Source of the DNA: a virus
DNA: 24,797 nt
Virus record (IMG/VR): IMGVR_UViG_3300035688_000439
Coordinates: 1-24,797 of that record
Reading direction: 5' to 3' (one strand)
This document shows positions 67-20,904 of this stretch, piece after piece; the first letter of the stretch is position 1; each line of letters starts with the position of its first letter. The notes under the pieces are model-generated. The model saw nothing but the letters and a program-made list of their open reading frames with translations. It was not told the DNA's origin and did no database searches. The position numbers were made by a program, and so were the translations under genes.

Positions 67-2742
67 TCACCTCCTGCCTACAGGTGCGTTCTCGCGCACG
101 GCGGTCTGAATGGCCGCCGCTAGGCCCGATCGGTTTCGCTGAAGCATGTCAACGAATGAGGCCGCGTCGTTCGCGTAGATCGTAACCTGCATGGTGGTGT
201 TGCCGCCTGCGCCCGCCATCGCCAGCTCAGGCCCGGTGTGGAACGGCCTGATGATCTCGGTTCCCCGCTCGCCGGCGAGCAGCACGGTGGGCCGGCGAAT
301 GACCATACCGGCGGCCGCGTGCGCGAAGCCCGGATCGCCCCAGCCGCCCTGGACCTCCCCGCCGCCAGCGCCCGCCTCCCCGCCGCCAGCGCCCGCCTCC
401 CCGCCGCCAGCGCCCGCCGCCCCGCCGCCGGTCATACCGACGAGGGCGTTGAACAGCCCGCCGAGCAGGCCCCCGGCCTGGCCGGTCTGCTGCATCTGAT
501 CGACGCCGAAAAGCCAGTCGGCGACCATCTTCGCGATCATCTGAGCAAAGGCACGCTGAATGCTGGCGAACAGATCAGAGAAGAATCCAGCCAGCGTGCT
601 CGCGCCACTCATCAGCTTCTCGAATGACGACGCGAACGCGTCGTGGATGTTCTCGGCAAGGTGCAGCCACAGCCCGCTGATCGTGTGTCCGGTGTCGTCC
701 CACTTAGAGGTCAGCAAGTCGATCTGGCGCTCTATCTCGCGCCGCTCCTCGACGATGGTCTCGCGCCGGCCGAGCGAGGCGGTGTCCCACTCTCGCTGCA
801 GCTCTGCCAACCGCTGTCGCAGCGCGGCCAGCACCTGCTCGGCCGTCTGCGGCATCGGCGGGAGCATGTCCATCATCGGAGCTACATAGGGGCCGGGCTT
901 GACCTGCGATATGCCGGCCTGCGCCTGCAGCCGGAGCTGCTCGTCAAGCAGCTTATTGAGCGTCTGCATCGCGTCGGTCCAGACGACCGTGCCCTCGTAA
1001 CCGAGCCGCCGCAGGCGATCCAGTTCCTCCCGCGCCAGCGCCACCCTGGGCGCCAGCTCCTCGATCTGCTCGGAGAAAGTGGCGGCCCTTCTGAGCTGGG
1101 CTTCATCCGTAACGCCGCCCATAGAAGCCGTCAGCTTTGCCAGCTCGCCGTTCACATCGGTGAGCCGCGTCTTTAGTTCCGTCGCCCACTGCCAAACCGC
1201 GGGCTCCTTTGACTGCTGGGCGAGCGCGCCCCACTTCTCCGCGGCCACAGTGAGCCAGGCCGCGTAGTCCTGCAGGACGCGCAGCCGCCTCTCGTCGTCC
1301 TTGTCAGCCGCCGCGAAGTCGAGCTTTGCCTTTAGCAGCGCGCCATAGGCCTGCGAAAGCTCGAGCGGAGTGGGACCCTTCTTGCCGCCGCCCGCGCCAC
1401 CTCGGCCACCGCCGCCACCGCCGCCACCGACCGCCTTCTGGCCGGCCTGCATGAGTTCAGCCAAGTCAGCCTTCTGTTTGTCCAACCATGCCTGCCACTC
1501 ACTCTTCGGCGTCCCCTCGGGAAGGATGACCTCCCACTGCGGGACGGCCAACTGTATCCGGCCACCACTCAGCTTGTAGAGCGCCGTGCTGAAGTCGCGC
1601 AGCGGCTTGTTGACGAACTCCATGAGTTGGTTCGCGATGGCCAGCAGCGCGTTGAATACCACCTCGCGGATGTGGCCCCAGTCAGCCTCCCATGCCACGA
1701 CCAGCGTGCCCAGCGCGGCGATCACGAGACCGATCGGGCCTGTGACTGCGGCAATGGCGGCACTTAGAGCGGGCCAGGCCGCGATCAGACCTGGCAGGGC
1801 GATGATCAGCGGCCCCAGTGCCAGCATGAGGCCCGATACGGCGCCCGCGGCCAGCAGCAGTCCCTTCGCCAAACCAGGGTGCTCCTTTGCCCAGTTGGCC
1901 GCCGCCGCCGCCAGCTCTTTCACCCTCTCCATCAGGTCGCGAAGCAGCGGCATGGCGCTGGTGATGACAGGCATGACCGCCGAGGCGATACTGACCGCGA
2001 CGCCTTGCATCTGCGCGTGCAGCATGTCGAAGGCCGCGTCCGCCCGGTCCGCGGCGGCGAACATGTCATCGCTCCACACGATCCCGAGGTCGCGCGCCGC
2101 CTGCTGCTGGCGCGCCATCTCCGCCGTGGTCATCGCGAGCAGCGGCGCGATCTCTTTCCAGCCTCGGCCGAAGACCTGGGCGGCGAACATGTTCCGTTGC
2201 GTCTCGTTCCCCATGCCCTGCAAGCTCCCGATTACCTCGGGCAGTAGCGCCGACATGGGCCGCAACGACCCGTCCGCCTCGTGGATCGCGATGCCCAGCG
2301 ACTTCATCACATCCGCGGCATTGCCCGTCCCCTCCTCGATGCCCATGAGGTTCCGCTGGAGAAATGCGGAAGCGTTGGTGATGGCCTCGGTGGAGAACCC
2401 CGCCTGTTGGGCGATGAAGGTGTACTCCTGCAACTGCTTGCGCGAGAGGCCCGTCATCGCGGCCTGATTCCGAAGCTGTTCGGCAGTCTCGCCGGTCTGT
2501 TGGGCAAGCCGCATCATGCCGGCAATCGCGCCGGCGATGCCCGCACCCATCGCCGTGATAGCGACGCCAGCCGCGCGGATCGCGCCGGCGTTGCGCTGAA
2601 TTGCAGCGTTCGCTTTTGCGAAGCCGAGTGACATCGAGGCGCCGGTCTTCGTCGCCGCGCCCTCGACCTTGCCCAGCTCCACAATCGCCTGGTTGGCGTT
2701 GGTGACGATGCGCCCGAACAGCGTAAAGAGCTCAGCCGCCAC
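67..2742 (-). CDS. Tail tape measure protein
   Basis: This 891-residue protein would set tail length and lie inside the tail tube. The N-terminal 280 residues are alanine-rich and helical, with the pattern of phage tape measure and minor tail proteins (for example GMGNETQRNMFAAQVFGRGW, about residues 176-195). Residues about 290-350 form a long hydrophobic stretch with several potential membrane-spanning segments. A glycine-rich linker follows near 440-460, then heptad-like helical segments, and a second glycine-rich linker encoded by 21-bp repeats lies near the C-terminus. The start is a GTG with GGAG 8 bases upstream, overlapping the end of the frameshifted chaperone by 11 bases. At the usual 1.5 angstroms per residue the tail would be about 130 nm; that is an inference. 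Confidence 0.92.
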   Translation of the reverse strand: MAAELFTLFGRIVTNANQAIVELGKVEGAATKTGASMSLGFAKANAAIQRNAGAIRAAGVAITAMGAGIAGAIAGMMRLAQQTGETAEQLRNQAAMTGLSRKQLQEYTFIAQQAGFSTEAITNASAFLQRNLMGIEEGTGNAADVMKSLGIAIHEADGSLRPMSALLPEVIGSLQGMGNETQRNMFAAQVFGRGWKEIAPLLAMTTAEMARQQQAARDLGIVWSDDMFAAADRADAAFDMLHAQMQGVAVSIASAVMPVITSAMPLLRDLMERVKELAAAAANWAKEHPGLAKGLLLAAGAVSGLMLALGPLIIALPGLIAAWPALSAAIAAVTGPIGLVIAALGTLVVAWEADWGHIREVVFNALLAIANQLMEFVNKPLRDFSTALYKLSGGRIQLAVPQWEVILPEGTPKSEWQAWLDKQKADLAELMQAGQKAVGGGGGGGGRGGAGGGKKGPTPLELSQAYGALLKAKLDFAAADKDDERRLRVLQDYAAWLTVAAEKWGALAQQSKEPAVWQWATELKTRLTDVNGELAKLTASMGGVTDEAQLRRAATFSEQIEELAPRVALAREELDRLRRLGYEGTVVWTDAMQTLNKLLDEQLRLQAQAGISQVKPGPYVAPMMDMLPPMPQTAEQVLAALRQRLAELQREWDTASLGRRETIVEERREIERQIDLLTSKWDDTGHTISGLWLHLAENIHDAFASSFEKLMSGASTLAGFFSDLFASIQRAFAQMIAKMVADWLFGVDQMQQTGQAGGLLGGLFNALVGMTGGGAAGAGGGEAGAGGGEAGAGGGEVQGGWGDPGFAHAAAGMVIRRPTVLLAGERGTEIIRPFHTGPELAMAGAGGNTTMQVTIYANDAASFVDMLQRNRSGLAAAIQTAVRENAPVGRR
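361..423. repeat. Three 21-bp tandem repeats in the tape measure gene
   Basis: The + strand unit GCCGCCAGCGCCCGCCTCCCC occurs at 361-381 and 382-402, with a nearly identical copy at 403-423 (one T changed to G). On the coding strand it encodes the heptapeptide GEAGAGG three times, a flexible linker near the C-terminus of the tape measure. The unit keeps the reading frame, so copy number can vary by slippage without breaking the gene. Confidence 0.9.
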
Positions 2743-3220
2743 GCGCTACTCTCCTTGCCCGCCGCCGCTCGCGCCGCGCTTCACACTCGGCGAGTTGTTT
2801 GCTCCGGCCGAACACCCGCTTCTGTCCGGGGTGCTCCCGGAACCACGTCAATGCGCGCTCTGCGTTCGCCATCGCCACCTCTTTGCTCACCAGCCCTGTC
2901 CGCTGCACCTGCTGCGGACCCAGCTCACGTGTCTCATAGCCCAGGCCGGCCGTCCGCAGGTACTCGCCGAAGCTCTGCTTGCCGCCCGCCCCGAATTGCC
3001 AGCCGACAAACGCGGCCCGTCGCCACCGCTCCTCGTTCTCCTCGGCTACCGCCTCCTGCACGCTGTCCAGCACGTCGTACCAGCGCGCCAAACGCAGCCT
3101 CTCCGGGTCGCGGAACACATCATCCGTCCAGCCGTAGCGCGCCTGTATCAGGTCGAGGACTCGGCGGAGGGGGAGGGCTCGGCCGGCGGCGCCTCGGCCG
3201 CGGTTCCTGGCCCAGCCGGT
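2732..3220 (-). CDS. T extension of the tail assembly chaperone (made by -1 frameshift)
   Basis: This frame overlaps the end of the G chaperone and is open from upstream of the slippery site to a TGA at 2732. It has no convincing start of its own: the residues upstream of the slip read like a shadow frame, while the residues after it (LIQARYGWTDDVF, then a charged helical region ending in an arginine-rich tail) look like genuine protein. After the slip the first residues are TGWARN. The fusion with the first 124 residues of G gives a GT product of about 286 residues. In lambda-like phages gpG and gpGT bind the tape measure and recruit tail tube subunits. Position between tail tube and tape measure genes supports this. 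Confidence 0.85.
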   Translation of the reverse strand, partial: TGWARNRGRGAAGRALPLRRVLDLIQARYGWTDDVFRDPERLRLARWYDVLDSVQEAVAEENEERWRRAAFVGWQFGAGGKQSFGEYLRTAGLGYETRELGPQQVQRTGLVSKEVAMANAERALTWFREHPGQKRVFGRSKQLAECEARRERRRARRVARGG

Positions 3221-3591
3221 AAAAAAGCCGCCACGTCCCGGCTCTGCCGCACGGCTCCTATCACGGCCATCATATCGGCCAGCGAGAACCGCTCGGGGTC
3301 GTGCAGTTCCTCCTCCGGTACGCCCAGCAACTGCGAGGCGAGGTTGAACACCTCTTCCGTGCAGTGCGCGACGGCAAAGATCATCAGGCGCGGCCCCTTG
3401 CTCCCGTCCTCGAGCTCTGCAGGGTCCGCGATGATGCCGCGCGCCAGCGCCATCTCGACGATGCGGGCCAGCGGCACCATCGCATCGAGGCCCAGCTTGC
3501 ACAGCCGATACTCCCGGCCGCCCAGGGTCAGCACCGGCTCCGGTCCGAACATTGCCTGCTCGCCCGCAGTGGCTTGCGTCTGTCCTGTCAT
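3148..3591 (-). CDS. Tail assembly chaperone G
   Basis: This 147-residue product is translated without frameshifting. Residues 15-115 form the conserved-looking part (TLGGREYRLCKLGLDAMVPL, later FSLADMMAVIGAVRQSRDV), typical of small tail chaperones that begin by describing a target 'field' followed by helices. The tail from about residue 125 is low-complexity, rich in Ala, Pro, Glu and Ser, as expected for the in-frame end past the slip. The ATG at 3591 follows GGAAGAG at a usable distance. Its place after the tail tube gene and before the tape measure is the standard order in siphoviruses. Confidence 0.87.
   Translation of the reverse strand: MTGQTQATAGEQAMFGPEPVLTLGGREYRLCKLGLDAMVPLARIVEMALARGIIADPAELEDGSKGPRLMIFAVAHCTEEVFNLASQLLGVPEEELHDPERFSLADMMAVIGAVRQSRDVAAFLPAGPGTAAEAPPAEPSPSAESST
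3220..3226 (-). promoter_or_regulatory. -1 ribosomal frameshift slippery site T TTT TTA
   Basis: On the coding strand the heptamer TTTTTTA falls in frame as GCT TTT TTA CCG, which is the X XXY YYZ pattern and the same heptamer as the HIV-1 gag-pol site. A one-base backward slip joins the G frame to the T frame without meeting a stop. The downstream coding strand is very GC-rich and could form a stimulatory structure, but I did not define one. Confidence 0.88.
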
Positions 3592-14936: not shown

Positions 14937-15533
14937 TCAGTCTCCCGTCTGCTGCGAATTGGACTGCAAGCGAGATGCCAGACACAGCGATCCCAGCGCG
15001 CCGTGAAAGCCGCGGGCGCGCAACACCAGTTCCCATCCGGCACAGGCCGGGAACGCACGCTCCCACATCTCGAGCCAGGTTTCCTCGGTCAGCGCGCAGG
15101 TGTGATAGGGGCTGGCGTCGAGGTTGATCTCGCAGAACACCAGGTAGCGGCTCACCCGCTCCATCTCGTGCAGGATGCGCTCGGCCTTCTCTGCATCGGG
15201 CATATGCTCTAGCAGGTGGAAGCTGGTCACGAGATCGAACGACCTCATCCACTCCGCAGGAAGCCGTGAAACGTCGCCTTCAATGTATCGCTCGGGAGAC
15301 AGCAGCCGGGTGTGCTTCTCCTTGCGCATCCAATCCATGCCGCGGGCATCGAACCCGGCCGCGCAGAGCGTCGTGGCGAAACGGTTGTTGCCGCAGCCCA
15401 GGTCGAGCGCGGTCGCCAGCTTCTTGCCGCGGGCGAGCCACTGGCAGGCGCCAACCCAGATGTCGCCGCGGTTCACCACGAAATAGTAGTGATCGGGCAG
15501 CAACTTCTCGTACTCTTCGGGTCGCTGCAACAC
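14937..15533 (-). CDS. Class I SAM-dependent methyltransferase
   Basis: The 198-residue product starts at the GTG at 15533, which overlaps the stop of the upstream gene (TAGTG). Motif I is ALDLGCGNNRFATTLCAAGF (about residues 42-61), followed by GMDW at the end of the second strand, GDVSRLP, and the acidic loop FDLVTSFHLLEHMPD. This is a Methyltransf_11-type small-molecule or glycan methylase. Substrate is not evident. Its neighbours, a capsule-type glycosyltransferase and a prohead protease, suggest modification of a sugar or virion protein. Confidence 0.85.
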   Translation of the reverse strand: MLQRPEEYEKLLPDHYYFVVNRGDIWVGACQWLARGKKLATALDLGCGNNRFATTLCAAGFDARGMDWMRKEKHTRLLSPERYIEGDVSRLPAEWMRSFDLVTSFHLLEHMPDAEKAERILHEMERVSRYLVFCEINLDASPYHTCALTEETWLEMWERAFPACAGWELVLRARGFHGALGSLCLASRLQSNSQQTGD

Positions 15534-16720
15534 TAGCTCTCTCCCAGCAGACGCCGCCACTTCGCCACTAACAGCGCCGGCGCGTCGCCCCACGGGTCGC
15601 CGCCCCAGAAGCTGGCGCTGCTCCATCCCGGTAGCCACGCGCCCTCGGGCGTCAGGTACTGGACCATGCGGGCGACGTGCCCGCACACCGCTGTGCACTC
15701 ATCCTCGGTCTGCGGGGCCGCGTCTTCCTCTCCCCACCCGTCTCCCCCCCGCCTATCGCGGGTGAATCCGCGCCCCGAATGTGGGCCCTCGCCGAACGCA
15801 TACGCGGGCAATCCCGCCATCGCGGCCTCGAGCAAAACGTTCGAGTTTATCGCCGCCACCGCGCTGACCAGCGGGAACAGCCCGTGCAGGTTCTCATTCG
15901 CGCCGAGCCACATCCCGCCCTTGGCCTCGATCTCGAGCCGACAGTGCTCGCGCCGCTCCTCGAATGCAGTCTCCCACTCGACCCGCGCGGCGACCGGATG
16001 GCGCTTGACCAGCACCGGCCCGGGCCACTGGATGCAGTGCCGGATGAAGTCGCGCTGGCTCTCGTACTCGACGCGGTGATAGACCGAGGCCCCGTCCGTC
16101 TCCAACTGCATCGCCACCAGCAGGGTTCCCCCGCGCCGGCAGAACCGCTTCACCGCATCCGCAGGCTCCGCACCCTGCGCGTGCTTGGAGAGTCCGAGGC
16201 GCCGCCATTTCTCGATGACGCTGGCGCCTGCCTCGGCCTCCACCCGCAGGTGGTCGATTCGGTCCCAATCGCTATGCCCGACCACGTAACCGCCCACAGG
16301 GTCGAAGATCCGCGTCTTCGGTAGCCAGCCGTGCTCAACATGCATGACCGGGATGCCCCGCTCTCTGCACAGCATCGCCCACGCGTTCTGGTCGGCGTTC
16401 CCGCAGTTATACAACAGGATCGCCGCGGGCTTGCGCTTGTCCAGGTATCGCCGAGCCCCGGCCCAGAGCCGACCTACGTTTTCGAGTATCAGCCTGCGAT
16501 CCGCGCCGCTGATCGACGACCGACGTAGCTCCTTCGGCGCCAGCTCGGCCAGCGCCGCCAGGTCCTCGGTCTCGGGGCGAGTATGCCGCCAGTCAATGAA
16601 GGCCAGCTCCGGCGGATGAGCGGCAGCGATCAGTGCCGGCACTTGGGCCAGCCAGCCCGCCGCTGTCTCCGACGAGGGAGGCGCTGTGGCATGGTAGTCA
16701 ACCGGGATGATGATGCTCAC
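15533..16720 (-). CDS. Capsule-polysaccharide-type glycosyltransferase-like protein
   Basis: The 395-residue product starts at the GTG at 16720, overlapping the portal stop (GTGA), with GGAGG upstream; a longer frame to 16891 runs antisense through the endonuclease start and is rejected. It has a GT-B-like layout. VMHVEHGWLPKTRIFDPVGG (about 125-144) matches the 'HGWLP...DP.G' motif of capsule polysaccharide synthesis and export proteins (KpsC/KpsS-like). Later, AINSNVLLEAAMAGLPAYAF followed by GEGPHSGRGFT matches their conserved nucleotide-sugar-binding region. The reaction, acceptor and sugar are unknown. The long tail after residue 340 is rich in Trp and Gly. Confidence 0.75.
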   Translation of the reverse strand: MSIIIPVDYHATAPPSSETAAGWLAQVPALIAAAHPPELAFIDWRHTRPETEDLAALAELAPKELRRSSISGADRRLILENVGRLWAGARRYLDKRKPAAILLYNCGNADQNAWAMLCRERGIPVMHVEHGWLPKTRIFDPVGGYVVGHSDWDRIDHLRVEAEAGASVIEKWRRLGLSKHAQGAEPADAVKRFCRRGGTLLVAMQLETDGASVYHRVEYESQRDFIRHCIQWPGPVLVKRHPVAARVEWETAFEERREHCRLEIEAKGGMWLGANENLHGLFPLVSAVAAINSNVLLEAAMAGLPAYAFGEGPHSGRGFTRDRRGGDGWGEEDAAPQTEDECTAVCGHVARMVQYLTPEGAWLPGWSSASFWGGDPWGDAPALLVAKWRRLLGES

Positions 16721-19700
16721 GTGCTCAGTCCCTCCACCAGGTGGGCAGCGGCGCAACGACAGTTTTGTGCTATAATGCCACCAGCGATGTAGCAACCGCT
16801 GTGCGTCTGGAGATTGTAGACATGCCCCGCAAAGTGGCGTATCCGGACCTCGCAGATGTGCGTCGCCTCTATGACCAGGGCATCGGGACATCCACCATTG
16901 CCCGACAGTACAGAATCAGCAAGTCCACGATGCTCAAATGGCTCCATCAGCAGGGCTTCGCGTTCCGGCCTCCCGGCTGGCGCTACAACGACCTGTCTGC
17001 GATCATCGTCGAACTCTACCGTTCTGGGCTTTCCGAGAAGGCCGTCTCCGAGCGCCTCGGCATCGAGCGTACAGTTGTCCGGCGCCGACTCCTCGAAGCT
17101 GGCATCACCCCCCGCAACCGCTCCGAGTCCATGTACCTGCGGATGAGCCAGACCAGCCCCGACGAGAGACAACGGCTGACCGCGGCCGCCCATGCCGCGG
17201 TCCGCGGAAAGGCGAGGAGCGAGGAGGAACTCTGTGCCCGCGCGTTGCGGCGGGAGCGGACACACGAGGAGGTCGGCAAGGGCGAGCGCATCGTCGCCCA
17301 GTGGCTGACTGACCGCGGCTGCACTGTCACGATGCAGAAGGCGGTAGGCCGTTACAATCTCGACCTCGCCATTCCGCCCGTCGCCGTGGAAATCCATGCT
17401 CAGGCCCGGCATCCGGTGCAGGCACTCGATAGTCGCAAGCGCATGAAATACCTGACCGATCGCGGTTGGCACGTTCTCTACATCTGGGTTTCTATTCGAC
17501 GCTTCCTCATCGCGGAAGCGGCCGCAGATGATGTTGTCGCCTTCTTTCAGCGATCCAAGCGCGACGAATCCATCCCGGGTCCATATCGGGTGATTCGGGG
17601 TTCCGGCGAGTTTGTGGCCGAGGGACGTGGTGATCTCGATTAGCGGTCCCTCGTACCAGCGGCGGTAAGCCTTCTCAATGCCTCTGGCCTGCACCATCGT
17701 ATCGCCAGGGAAGCAGTTGATGACCTCTTCCGCCGGCGCGCCCGGCGCATTCGGATACAGCAGCCCATTCGAGAAGCCCTCATGCAGCGCCCGTATCTCG
17801 CCGTCTACCATCGCGTGCGAATCCCGCACCCTATCGTCGCGGCTGCTGATCCACTCCTTGAGCACCACCGCGCCGGTCTGCTTTTCGACCTGCAAGGCCC
17901 CCATGTTGTGGCCGAAGTTCACCGCCGCGCCAGCCTCGGTGCGCGCGATCAGGAAGCTACGGCTGCGGTCAAGCGCGCTGTCGCCCTCGCCCGCCCAGTC
18001 CGCGTAGGATGCCCGAATCCGCTTGGCGATGTCGGAGGCCCCTTCGTTCTGTGACAGCCCCTCGGCCACGCCCTCGGCTATCGCGTCGCGCGTGGTCTGG
18101 CTCATCGCCGTGACCTTCTGCGCCGTCTCTGAGCGAATGAAGTGCTCGACCGCCGGGTCGTCGAAGTCGAATGCCCAGGCGCGCTCCTTGTACTCGAGGG
18201 CCTTGCGCTGGAGCTCTGGCATCGCGCCTTTCGGGATCGCCCTTATGATCCGCCGCCCCTCCAGCGTCCCGAAGTGGGCGATCATCTGCTTGTAGGCTGC
18301 CATCAGCCATACCGACCACTGCGTCTTGTTGCGCTCGATCGCGCCGACGATCGCCGCTTTGCCACCACCCTCGAAAGCCGCCCCTACCGCCTCCCCCTCG
18401 GCCATGAACAGCGTTGCGATCTGTTTGGCGATCCGGTCTTCCCAGCGCGCCCTGTCGTTATCGAATGCCTTCCAGTATGCCGCCTTCTCGTCTGCCGCCA
18501 TCCCGGATTTCACTTCGAGTGCCGGCACCGCGGTCTTCGGCGGCTCCGAGATCGGCGCGTACCCCAGCGTTGGCGGCTTGCTCCCGCCCCACGGCAGGTC
18601 CCCGCCCTCCACCGCCGCGACGCCCAGCTCCAGCCGCTGGTTCACCTCGTTGAATGGCACCCCCATGTCCCAGAGCTTGCGGCCCGAATCCACTTTCTCG
18701 CGCCAGATGCTCTGCATTGCCGGGATGCCGGACACGTCATAGCTGACCCGCAGTGTCTTCTTGCTCGCGTCCTTCAGTCCCTCCGGGTTCCAGTATGGAC
18801 AGAGTCGCAGATCGAGCGCATCGCCCAGGTCGTCGAGCCGCGGGATGACCGTGTCTTCCCAGAAAATCTTCCGGCCGACCTCCATGTTGTTGAAAGTCGT
18901 GCGCTCCTGCGTGACCAGCACGACGGGCACGCCGAAGACATTGCAGTTATGGACCGCGCCGCTGGTAGTTACATACGACTCGTCCTCTTCAACCTGGAGA
19001 TTGTAGACAGGCCCGCAGTAAGGCTCTCGCTCGGCCTTCTGCATGGCATAGTGGGCATAGCCATTGCGTATCGTGATCGACGGCGGACGCCTGCGGACGC
19101 GAGGCCACTGTAGGTCATACCGATCACTTTGCGCGAAATGCCTGCCGCCGATACATCCTTCGGTCCCCGAAAGACGGGCTGTCCGAATACTCGCATGCGC
19201 GCCAAACCGCAGTACAAGCAGGCGGACCTGCCAAGCTAGGGTAGCACTCGTGGTGCAGAAGCGCACCACTGATGGTGTTCGCAGGCTGCCATCACCAGCG
19301 ACGAGTCCGGCGAGTGCCCCCCGAGCAAGCTCATCACTGCCGCTGATCAACCAATTCGGCAAGCGCTTCTTGCTGGCTCCAGCACCGCCGCACATCTCGC
19401 GTAACAACTCGCGGAGTCTCTGCGATCGGGCCTCGACGCGCCAGACGTTCGTGTATGCATTCTGTACCCGCCTAACGCTCACGCGAGCGCCGAACCGTTC
19501 TCTCGCCATGCCCGCCGCCCACCGCCCAAGGGCCTCTTCCTCGGGCCCCAGATAGATCACGATTCCGCCCTTCGAGGAGCAACCATCCGCCGCATAGAGT
19601 CCGATCAGCTTGGCGAGATCATAGTCGGCGCCATCTATGGCTGGCGGTTCATCGTTGGTAGGGACTGGCAGGGTGAGTTGGTCGTATGCCCGCCTACTGT

Positions 19701-20904
19701 TTCTCGCCCACACCCGCAACTGATCTGCTGCTATCCACTGTTGGTCGCCGTCGTGACGCCGCCGATGCGTTCTTGTGGGCTTTTCGTTCACTGCGAGGTA
19801 GGGATGATTCGGCGTAACCAGTGCGGAATCAAGAGCTTTCGCCTTCAGGCGCACCATCGGACCTTCGTACAATTTCTCCGATATGGCCGTCACTTTCCGA
19901 TAGCGGCCCCGGTGGGTCAATACCAATGTTCCCGGCACAACATCCTCGATCGGTTGTACGCCCCGCTCCGTGATTACGCGGGCCCCAGGAGCGAAGCATA
20001 TTGAGGAGACGTTGAACTGTCGTGTCTTCAGGAAGTCCATCTCGACCGGGCTGAGACTCATGGGCGTGTAGCTGGCATCCGATCCCAGCACCCAGGGCAT
20101 GTGCGCGTTGTCGGCCCCCAGGTGCTGCTCCTTGACCTGCTCCTGCGCATCTTCCCACTGCTCCTCAGTCAGCGGATGTTTGAACGCGAACAGCCCATCG
20201 GTCACCGCCCGGTTCTGCAGGCTGACCTTGTTCCAGCGCACCGCCTCCACGTCGGTGTCAACCGTCTGCATCGCGGCCCTAAGCGGCGCCAGGCCCCAGA
20301 AGGGAGTGCCCGGGTCGGCGATCATGAGATGGCAGATGTCCTGCGGCTCGAGCGGCTTCATCAGGCTCCCGATCCGGTACTCGTAGCGGGCCACCTCCAG
20401 GCCTGTGCCGGCAGGCACTGGCTTGATCTGGTCGGGCATCAACGGGACGATGTTCTGTGGGATGCCCGCGCTGTTGCGCTCCAAGTGCCAGACCGCGTTG
20501 CCGCCGAGGTACAGGTGGTAAGCGGCTCGCTCGAACAGGTCCTGCCGGCTCATATACGGGTTCGGCCGCGAGAGCAGGTTGCTCAGCGGGTGCGAGTCAT
20601 CGCGCTCCCATTCGTCCTCGCCCACGCGCTGCTCGACGAACCAGGCGGCGGCGGAGATGGCATCGGCCAGCTTGCGAACACATGCGTAGACCCATTCGCT
20701 GGCCTTCAGCCCGTTCTGGATCGCGTTGGCGGTGCTCCAGTCGGTGAACGTCGGCCGGTTCGCCTGCTGGGGCGTGACTAGGGCGAGCTGCTCCCGCGCG
20801 TCGCGCAGGGCGGCCTTGGCGGCCGCTACCCGCATCTGTGGGGTCAGCGGCCGCGGCGGCACTCCCTTGCCGACCATCCGCCGTAGCGTCTCAGTCAGGC
20901 CCAA
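16717..20904 (-). CDS. Portal-MuF fusion interrupted by two inteins
   Basis: The 1395-residue precursor would yield a 726-residue protein after splicing. Residues 1-302 and 654 to about 780 are an HK97-type portal (EWVYACVRKLADAISAAAWF, HPLSNLLSRPNPYMSRQDLF, QFNVSSI joined to CNVFGVPVVLV). Residues about 800-1063 plus 1382-1395 are a MuF/SPP1 gp7-like minor head domain (FLIARTEAGAA, KEWISSRDDRVRDSHAMVDG, and the terminal NCRC). Intein 1 splits the portal at a conserved Ile-Cys, and intein 2 splits MuF between Asn and the first Cys of NCRC. The start is a TTG at 20904 preceded by GAGGG; an in-frame TGA lies just upstream, so no longer start exists. Portal-MuF fusions are known; two inteins in one are not usual. 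Confidence 0.93.
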   Translation of the reverse strand: MGLTETLRRMVGKGVPPRPLTPQMRVAAAKAALRDAREQLALVTPQQANRPTFTDWSTANAIQNGLKASEWVYACVRKLADAISAAAWFVEQRVGEDEWERDDSHPLSNLLSRPNPYMSRQDLFERAAYHLYLGGNAVWHLERNSAGIPQNIVPLMPDQIKPVPAGTGLEVARYEYRIGSLMKPLEPQDICHLMIADPGTPFWGLAPLRAAMQTVDTDVEAVRWNKVSLQNRAVTDGLFAFKHPLTEEQWEDAQEQVKEQHLGADNAHMPWVLGSDASYTPMSLSPVEMDFLKTRQFNVSSICFAPGARVITERGVQPIEDVVPGTLVLTHRGRYRKVTAISEKLYEGPMVRLKAKALDSALVTPNHPYLAVNEKPTRTHRRRHDGDQQWIAADQLRVWARNSRRAYDQLTLPVPTNDEPPAIDGADYDLAKLIGLYAADGCSSKGGIVIYLGPEEEALGRWAAGMARERFGARVSVRRVQNAYTNVWRVEARSQRLRELLREMCGGAGASKKRLPNWLISGSDELARGALAGLVAGDGSLRTPSVVRFCTTSATLAWQVRLLVLRFGAHASIRTARLSGTEGCIGGRHFAQSDRYDLQWPRVRRRPPSITIRNGYAHYAMQKAEREPYCGPVYNLQVEEDESYVTTSGAVHNCNVFGVPVVLVTQERTTFNNMEVGRKIFWEDTVIPRLDDLGDALDLRLCPYWNPEGLKDASKKTLRVSYDVSGIPAMQSIWREKVDSGRKLWDMGVPFNEVNQRLELGVAAVEGGDLPWGGSKPPTLGYAPISEPPKTAVPALEVKSGMAADEKAAYWKAFDNDRARWEDRIAKQIATLFMAEGEAVGAAFEGGGKAAIVGAIERNKTQWSVWLMAAYKQMIAHFGTLEGRRIIRAIPKGAMPELQRKALEYKERAWAFDFDDPAVEHFIRSETAQKVTAMSQTTRDAIAEGVAEGLSQNEGASDIAKRIRASYADWAGEGDSALDRSRSFLIARTEAGAAVNFGHNMGALQVEKQTGAVVLKEWISSRDDRVRDSHAMVDGEIRALHEGFSNGLLYPNAPGAPAEEVINCFPGDTMVQARGIEKAYRRWYEGPLIEITTSLGHKLAGTPNHPIWTRDGFVALGSLKEGDNIICGRFRDEEASNRNPDVENVPTAIGQVFHALATIECLHRMPGLSMDFHGDGRNGEVEIVTAYRLLHRDSAAAVSQPLGDDALALADLLVCPLPPQRAGTEFLLAPRLSADRGMGGRGQPLSLVGAGLAHPQVHGLGAVAGGDASFEESAPDNCTLDAEALGDGLLGKPRTVEFDDDRRQVVVAPAGRPEREALLMEPFEHRGLADSVLSGNGGCPDALVIEATHICEVRIRHFAGHVYNLQTHSGCYIAGGIIAQNCRCAAAHLVEGLST
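16768..16776 (+). promoter_or_regulatory. Extended -10 promoter for the antisense endonuclease
   Basis: TGCTATAAT is a perfect -10 hexamer with the TGn extension, followed 39 or so bases after the likely transcription start by the endonuclease ATG. There is no -35 match at the usual distance (GCGGCG), which extended -10 promoters tolerate. On the minus strand the same bases are codons ATT ATA GCA for Ile-Ile-Ala of intein block G, AT-rich codons that stand out in this GC-rich DNA. Confidence 0.65.
16822..17643 (+). CDS. Homing endonuclease, two HTH motifs and Vsr/EDxHD-like nuclease domain
   Basis: The only plus-strand gene, 273 residues. It starts at ATG 16822 with GGAG and a 9-base spacer; a GTG at 16741 is in frame but lies upstream of the promoter. 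Residues 20-46 (IGTSTIARQYRISKSTMLKW) and 69-95 (GLSEKAVSERLGIERTVVRR) are two helix-turn-helix units. After a basic linker, residues 152-227 form a compact nuclease core: GERIVAQWLTDRGCTV, then YNLDLAIPPVAVEIH (D181, E190, H192), then SRKRMKYLTDRGWHVLYIWV. This resembles the very-short-patch-repair-like EDxHD homing endonucleases known from phage introns and split inteins. It would cut intein-less MuF genes so that intein 2 is copied. Its last 24 residues lie opposite intein block B and are probably not part of the fold. Confidence 0.85.
   Translation: MPRKVAYPDLADVRRLYDQGIGTSTIARQYRISKSTMLKWLHQQGFAFRPPGWRYNDLSAIIVELYRSGLSEKAVSERLGIERTVVRRRLLEAGITPRNRSESMYLRMSQTSPDERQRLTAAAHAAVRGKARSEEELCARALRRERTHEEVGKGERIVAQWLTDRGCTVTMQKAVGRYNLDLAIPPVAVEIHAQARHPVQALDSRKRMKYLTDRGWHVLYIWVSIRRFLIAEAAADDVVAFFQRSKRDESIPGPYRVIRGSGEFVAEGRGDLD
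18946..19998 (-). other. Intein 1, in-frame LAGLIDADG type
   Basis: Intein 1 is 351 residues, precursor residues 303-653. It begins CFAPGARVITERGV (block A), has block B SALVTPNHPYLA (TPNH at 62-65), two LAGLIDADG motifs (KLIGLYAADG at 130-139 and GALAGLVAGDGS near 227-238), block F GPVYNLQVEEDESYV and ends TSGAVHN before Cys+1. It is a complete, conventional homing intein. The insertion point lies between conserved portal residues SSI and CNVFGVP, the usual kind of conserved site for phage inteins. Confidence 0.93.

Follow-up and report, generated by a model that had tools for sequence, protein, structure and literature searches.

Mobile inteins in their canonical form carry a LAGLIDADG or HNH endonuclease in frame. 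The element described here shares with them a Hint domain that has C1, TxxH and xN/C within a conserved motif of the host protein (a slash marks a splice junction throughout), and also the co-existence of empty and occupied alleles, with endonuclease-driven spread expected. It differs in that the endonuclease is no domain of the intein but the product of a distinct gene, the homing endonuclease gene (HEG), which lies on the opposite strand and has a predicted promoter and ribosome-binding site (RBS) to itself.

Dassa and colleagues (2009, cited in PMC12350094) reportedly described fractured-gene loci in which split inteins are accompanied by homing endonucleases of the EDxHD/Vsr type. Helix-turn-helix (HTH) type DNA-binding modules and a Vsr-like core are common to HEG and to enzymes of this type such as I-Bth0305I. 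However, only an E, a D and a second E are invariant in HEG, as opposed to E-D-x-H-D, and HEG lies antisense in a contiguous intein, whereas the EDxHD enzymes are found in a group I intron or between the halves of a split intein. A split-intein, fractured-gene arrangement was considered for our loci and rejected, since the N- and C-terminal splicing regions lie in one ORF at those loci where both ends are present. Some nuclear group I introns carry antisense endonuclease genes, and these resemble HEG in being transcribed opposite to the host gene. A group I intron is removed as RNA, so stops in the host frame are tolerated, whereas in the pair formed by the present intein and HEG both strands must stay open.

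In the searchable literature, the arrangement that comes closest is the ShiLan insertion, in which a phage methylase harbours an HNH endonuclease hidden out of frame (PMC11855218). As with HEG, the inserted sequence keeps the host frame open and conceals an endonuclease in another frame. The ShiLan enzyme is encoded on the same strand in a shifted frame, with no splicing domain and with no RBS detected by its authors (PMC11855218). A ShiLan-type assignment was rejected for HEG, which is a PD-(D/E)XK enzyme on the opposite strand at register 0, inside a true intein and with promoter and RBS signals. No description of an antisense endonuclease within an intein was found in the searchable literature. 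A 2025 preprint (10.1101/2025.01.02.630785, cited in PMC11855218) may overlap with our findings: it concerns actinobacteriophage inteins and its title refers to non-canonical architecture, so it could include Gordonia cases.

Based on the analysis below, the locus is very probably a mobile intein that lacks an in-frame homing endonuclease domain, the enzyme being encoded instead by an opposite-strand gene that overlaps the intein fully and in codon register.

Intein 2 and the gene on its opposite strand

The 24,797-bp window comes from IMG/VR, where it is a virus record. Its host ORF (16717-20904, minus strand, 1395 aa) encodes a portal protein fused to a MuF minor head domain (Pfam Phage_portal, 6e-56; Phage_Mu_F, 1.8e-9) and contains two inteins. 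Intein 2 (16762-17715, minus strand, 318 aa, CFPGDT...AQN/CRC), for which the coordinates of the original prediction proved exact, is inserted before the C-terminal CRC motif of MuF (EEVIN/C...AQN/CRC). The splicing blocks claimed for it are all present on the minus strand, although its penultimate residue is Q and not H. Block A (CFPGDTMV, 17692-17715) supplies the catalytic C1, and block B (GTPNHPIW, 17581-17604) has the HEG tail PYRVIRG as its shadow. The reverse complement of block F (GHVYNLQ, 16807-16827) holds the RBS and start codon of HEG, and that of block G (AGGIIAQN, 16762-16785) holds its predicted -10 box. Residues C1, T39 and H42 are invariant in 27 homologous inteins, N/C stands at the C-terminal junction, and NCBIfam intein_Nterm matches the host ORF above cut-off. 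With C1, the TxxH of block B and N/C, all in frame with the host protein, intein 2 has the sequence features expected of a Hint splicing domain and is predicted to splice.

The head-protein profile phrog_15127 (PHROG) matches intein 2 over its full length (1.1e-38). This profile was apparently built with intein-containing MuF proteins, so that what is really the endonuclease's shadow takes on the look of a domain conserved among head proteins. Intein 1 (18946-19998, minus strand), in the portal part of the host ORF, is conventional, with an in-frame LAGLIDADG_3 endonuclease and C...HN/C ends, and its register-antisense frame has stops; the two inteins of this one ORF represent two different endonuclease strategies. 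A capsule-synthesis-like gene (15533-16891, minus strand; Pfam Capsule_synth, 4.5e-7) and a methyltransferase-looking ORF (14937-15698, minus strand) separate the MuF gene from that of the prohead protease, an unusual cargo for a head-gene cluster.

HEG occupies 16822-17643 of the plus strand, from the ATG at 16822 to the TAG at 17641-17643, and encodes 273 residues. Its register offset against intein 2 is 0, with HEG residue j opposite intein residue 299-j; the codons of the two genes are exact reverse complements, just as had been predicted. The first HTH unit covers residues 8-45 (16843-16956, plus strand; Pfam HTH_7 at 8-42, helices at 10-18, 23-29 and 34-43) and the second residues 56-95 (16987-17106, plus strand; from Pfam and predicted structure). 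The nuclease core, delimited by conservation, AlphaFold (AF2) modeling and fold and profile matches, spans residues 153-225 (17278-17496, plus strand). It is followed by a C-terminal tail opposite block B (residues 237-266; 17530-17619, plus strand).

The profile search that had been proposed for this protein returned both HTH and nuclease families. The Pfam matches to HTH_7 (4.7e-8) and HTH_23 (2.4e-7) are above cut-off, and those to the MTES_1575 endonuclease family (7.8e-6) and DUF559 (1.1e-3) fall below the curated cut-offs. A phmmer search with the single HEG sequence against the PDB gave no significant match; the profile of 35 HEG members matches PDB entry 3hrl (5e-4), and 11 of these 35 members match MTES_1575 at E<=0.01. 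Across the 35 members E155, Y178-N179, D181 and E190 are invariant and Q172 nearly so. The conservation pattern points to E155, D181 and E190 as the putative catalytic set, with no invariant Lys or His. HEG shares the E...Q...YxxD...(A/V)E pattern of the DUF559/MTES_1575 proteins, but adds two N-terminal HTH units, a conserved (R)SEAMYLRMSQ linker and residence in an intein. The nuclease is best called a PD-(D/E)XK enzyme of the DUF559/MTES_1575/Vsr-like kind. Of the original description, the 273-residue protein, its two HTH units and its Vsr-like core are borne out, but the EDxHD assignment is not; an invariant E and D are found among the 35 members without an invariant H-D pair, and because that pair is not conserved we do not claim membership of the EDxHD family.

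AlphaFold models set the two products of the locus apart. The HEG model (mean pLDDT 92.4) comprises a pair of HTH units and a helical linker, followed by an alpha/beta nuclease core, which is predicted to adopt the alpha-beta-beta-beta-alpha-beta PD-(D/E)XK fold with the conserved acidic residues. Its best PDB fold match by Foldseek is the catalytic domain of the homing endonuclease I-Bth0305I (3r3p), at a probability of 1.00 and a target-normalised TM score of 0.54-0.57, with an E-value of only 3.6e-3; the modeling suggests that HEG has the fold of that domain. For intein 2, pLDDT reaches 90+ at residues 1-70 and 280-318, the splicing halves, and the leading PDB matches are inteins, in agreement with a predicted Hint fold. 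The middle of intein 2 is predicted to be disordered (pLDDT ~33). Its conserved motifs, DFHGD and VEIV, together with constraint on the intein frame in the overlap core (dN/dS ~0.5, see below), might suggest that the middle is itself a functional protein and that the antisense ORF is a by-product. We consider this highly improbable, as both motifs exactly shadow active-site motifs of HEG (AVEI and YNLD), the disordered middle faces an antisense product with a pLDDT of 92, the constraint on HEG is stronger, and where the intein has been lost the HEG frame persists. Under the preferred reading of an intein with a separate antisense endonuclease, the splicing domain would consist of the N-terminal 70 and C-terminal 40 residues, and the intervening ~150 residues would be an open, unstructured shadow of HEG.

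The paired family and selection on both frames

The original prediction drew attention to the avoidance of TTA, CTA and TCA codons in HEG. None occurs among the 39 Leu and Ser codons of the window copy, but in this GC-rich window openness is weak evidence when taken alone, because the probability of an open shadow frame at this position is ~0.024 under a synonymous-codon model and longer register-antisense frames are open elsewhere in the window (446 codons opposite the capsid gene; others are of 280 and 257 codons). As openness in the window is not surprising, the question was decided by comparison across loci.

Using tblastn with either protein, ~126-128 phage records were matched, and within MuF or head genes the hits of the two proteins fall on opposite strands. 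Loci were collected with profile HMMs for HEG and for the two intein halves, giving ~60 distinct loci; their sources are contigs of viruses, phage isolates and a single Muribaculaceae metagenome-assembled genome. At every intact intein examined, including the MuF inteins whose collection had been suggested, HEG is antisense at register 0 and lies opposite one ORF with both splicing regions; at two loci on contig ends only one intein half is visible. The paired loci span phages of Actinobacteria, Gammaproteobacteria, Bacteroidota and Chloroflexota, and a Chloroflexota plasmid record also carries the intein and antisense HEG, judged by match strand and annotation. Isolates with the element include Gordonia phages Vivi2, Angelicage, Fosterous and Malisha, Rhodococcus phage REQ3, Salmonella phage LPSE1, E. 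coli phages Snoke and fEg-Eco06, Klebsiella phage KpTDp1 and Pseudomonas phage BR313c, and further Cronobacter phage ES2, Edwardsiella phage MSW-3, Idiomarinaceae phage 1N2-2 and Haemophilus phage Aaphi23. The embedded endonuclease is annotated in none of the isolate records examined, and the intein in some of them. The locus that the original prediction treated as a single case is real, but it belongs to a phage-wide family with promoter and RBS signals of its own and is not a one-off.

The antisense layout is kept in a second host gene, found in Virus Rctr197k (2165-3517) and in a 177-kb contig (2812-4155). On inspection of the sequence this gene reads as a dCMP deaminase, unrelated to MuF, and the insertion lies inside its zinc motif (HLPCVxC...HN/CAK). 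Vibrio phage 1.266.O (692-2818) carries, at the same MuF site as the window, a diverged antisense HEG in register (E 2.7e-15) within an intein that has a canonical N-terminus and matches PT-HINT/Hint_2. As these are other Hint families, at least two intein lineages host HEG; either the endonuclease family may have passed from one of them to another, or there may have been an exchange of the splicing domain.

Codon alignment of the two frames allows any substitution to be scored as synonymous or nonsynonymous in both, and the proposed examination of selection on both strands was carried out on this basis. In the overlap core, the overlap-aware dN/dS of HEG is 0.225 (0.19-0.26; second estimator 0.243) and that of the intein frame 0.515 (0.43-0.61; second estimator 0.557), against 1.02 (0.80-1.34; second estimator 0.79) for the control, a register-antisense shadow of the MuF N-extein. 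The codon-position ratio p3/p1 is 1.56 in the core and 0.81 opposite block B; the constrained strand switches, and substitutions in the stretch encoding the HEG tail follow the intein frame. Stop-making codons are avoided in both directions. The 49 embedded HEGs contain 0 TTA, CTA or TCA codons where 317 are expected from codon usage at the same loci, and in the reverse direction the count is 0 against 448.5 expected.

A decisive natural control for this avoidance comes from Acinetobacter phages P1068 and IME285 and an IMG/VR contig, in which a free-standing HEG stands beside an intein-less MuF gene, convergent with it and overlapping the MuF stop by a few bases. These copies have 12-13 TTA, CTA or TCA codons. 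Their tail can still be aligned with the segment that lies opposite block B at the embedded loci, and this alignment suggests that they probably escaped from an intein. Homologous inteins whose middle is conserved as protein but whose plus-strand frame is broken had been named as a finding that would count against an antisense endonuclease. None was seen among the loci examined, and the Acinetobacter phages show the opposite pattern, with HEG intact and the antisense intein frame full of stops.

It could still be argued that HEG is a chance shadow ORF in GC-rich coding DNA with accidental similarity to HTH and nuclease proteins, given the modest odds against openness at intein 2 and the other long open shadows in the window. 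This explanation is almost certainly wrong and is refuted by the comparative data: the HEG protein is conserved at 34-68% GC with a dN/dS of ~0.23, stop-making codons are absent where hundreds are expected, a free-standing copy exists, the predicted fold is of high confidence, and the RBS and promoter signals are conserved. Domain homology and the tests across loci uphold the view that this is more than a chance frame.

Translation and transcription signals on the endonuclease strand

Across the family, block F, GHVYNL(Q/E), reads in reverse as (G)GAGG-8nt-ATG. The codons used there are biased towards this signal: CTC encodes the Leu in 36 of 48 loci, where usage at the same loci predicts 8.0 +/- 2.4, and CAT encodes the His in 37 of 41, where 19.6 are predicted, a bias that holds at 34 to 68% GC. 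In the window the predicted Shine-Dalgarno-like GGAG (16809-16812, plus strand) lies 9 nt before the ATG; taken alone it scores no better than recoded sequence, whereas the family-wide codon test is significant.

Between the end of the intein and the start of HEG, sigma-70-like promoters are predicted on the HEG strand. In the window the predicted promoter has an extended -10, TGCTATAAT (16768-16776, plus strand), opposite the codons ATT ATA GCA, and scores p=0.003 against synonymous recoding. Predicted promoters elsewhere comprise the consensus TTGACA-17-TATAAT in one locus (L004) and TTGACA-18-TATAAT in two others (L048 and L054). Compared with synonymous recodings of the same peptides, the promoter score has a mean z of 2.06, with p<0.05 in 28 of 52 loci, the window included, and p<0.01 in 12 of 52; in 260 control windows the mean z is -0.04 and 3.1% reach p<0.05. 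The per-locus tests are not independent because the loci share ancestry, but the positions of the boxes differ between lineages.

Homing endonucleases commonly decay after fixation, and the window copy might therefore be an unexpressed relic of a once-active antisense enzyme. The modest GGAG of the window would fit this, as would Rhodococcus phage REQ3, where the HEG match (2516-3139) does not begin until profile position 111, so that just the nuclease part is retained and the HTH units are either absent or diverged; that copy, with its nuclease frame still open opposite the intein, is possibly decaying. For the window phage we think such a fate unlikely, as its frame, start codon, invariant residues and extended -10 are intact and the family as a whole is under strong purifying selection. 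A functional antisense gene, our preferred reading, would be transcribed from its own sigma-70 promoter in block G and translated from the RBS and ATG of block F to give a two-HTH PD-(D/E)XK endonuclease, while the minus strand would be translated as portal-MuF plus intein, from which the splicing domain would excise itself. Having its own promoter, the enzyme may be made early, uncoupled from the late head operon; such timing would favour homing when phages infect a cell together.

Mobility and biological meaning

Intein-free MuF genes with exteins up to 97% identical occur within the same Salmonella phage group. As the choice of close HEG pairs biases a comparison of HEG with exteins, mobility was judged over all pairs and in both directions. 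Two loci (L007 and L010) share 93% identity in HEG and 45% in MuF; conversely, phages Vivi2 and Sedona are 99% identical in MuF and 31% in HEG, and fEg-Eco06 and a Salmonella locus (L061) are 96% identical in MuF and 24% in HEG. Empty alleles, replaced alleles and such mismatch between HEG and MuF identity are the pattern predicted by horizontal homing. These sequence comparisons place HEG in an element with empty and occupied alleles that appears to spread horizontally, as expected of a homing endonuclease. The enzyme would cut intein-free alleles at the MuF site, and repair would copy the whole element in.

A genuine antisense endonuclease could instead serve another role, such as marker exclusion or the shutting out of rival phages, and the intein would then merely shelter it. 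The Acinetobacter phages, which keep HEG beside an intein-free MuF in the manner of free-standing phage endonucleases, lend this some plausibility, but there is only a small chance that it is correct: homing predicts both the residence of HEG in a mobile intein with one conserved insertion site and the existence of empty and replaced alleles, and the free-standing copies keep a tail resembling the block B shadow, which points to escape from an intein. We therefore retain homing as the preferred role. It seems likely that the loci together form a class of phage mobile element not described before, in which an intein on one strand is set codon against codon with an independently expressed endonuclease on the other, block F doubling as RBS and start and block G as promoter. 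The phages that carry it infect at least four bacterial phyla, and it occupies two host genes and no fewer than two lineages of intein.

The element is of an already known kind, the mobile intein; what sets it apart is the antisense, in-register packing of its endonuclease. Textbook inteins are in-frame fusions of splicing and endonuclease functions, and here these functions are uncoupled onto opposite strands, so that a stop mutation in either frame harms the other. As the embedded HEG is unannotated in the isolate records examined, well-studied genomes have been harbouring a family of enzymes that escaped notice. Isolate phages of Gordonia, Salmonella, E. coli, Klebsiella and Pseudomonas, together with intein-free relatives, make experiments possible. 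The locus offers a large, testable example of fully overlapping antisense genes in which selection can be measured on both frames, and shows how, in nature, a selfish gene and a phage head gene can become genetically entangled.
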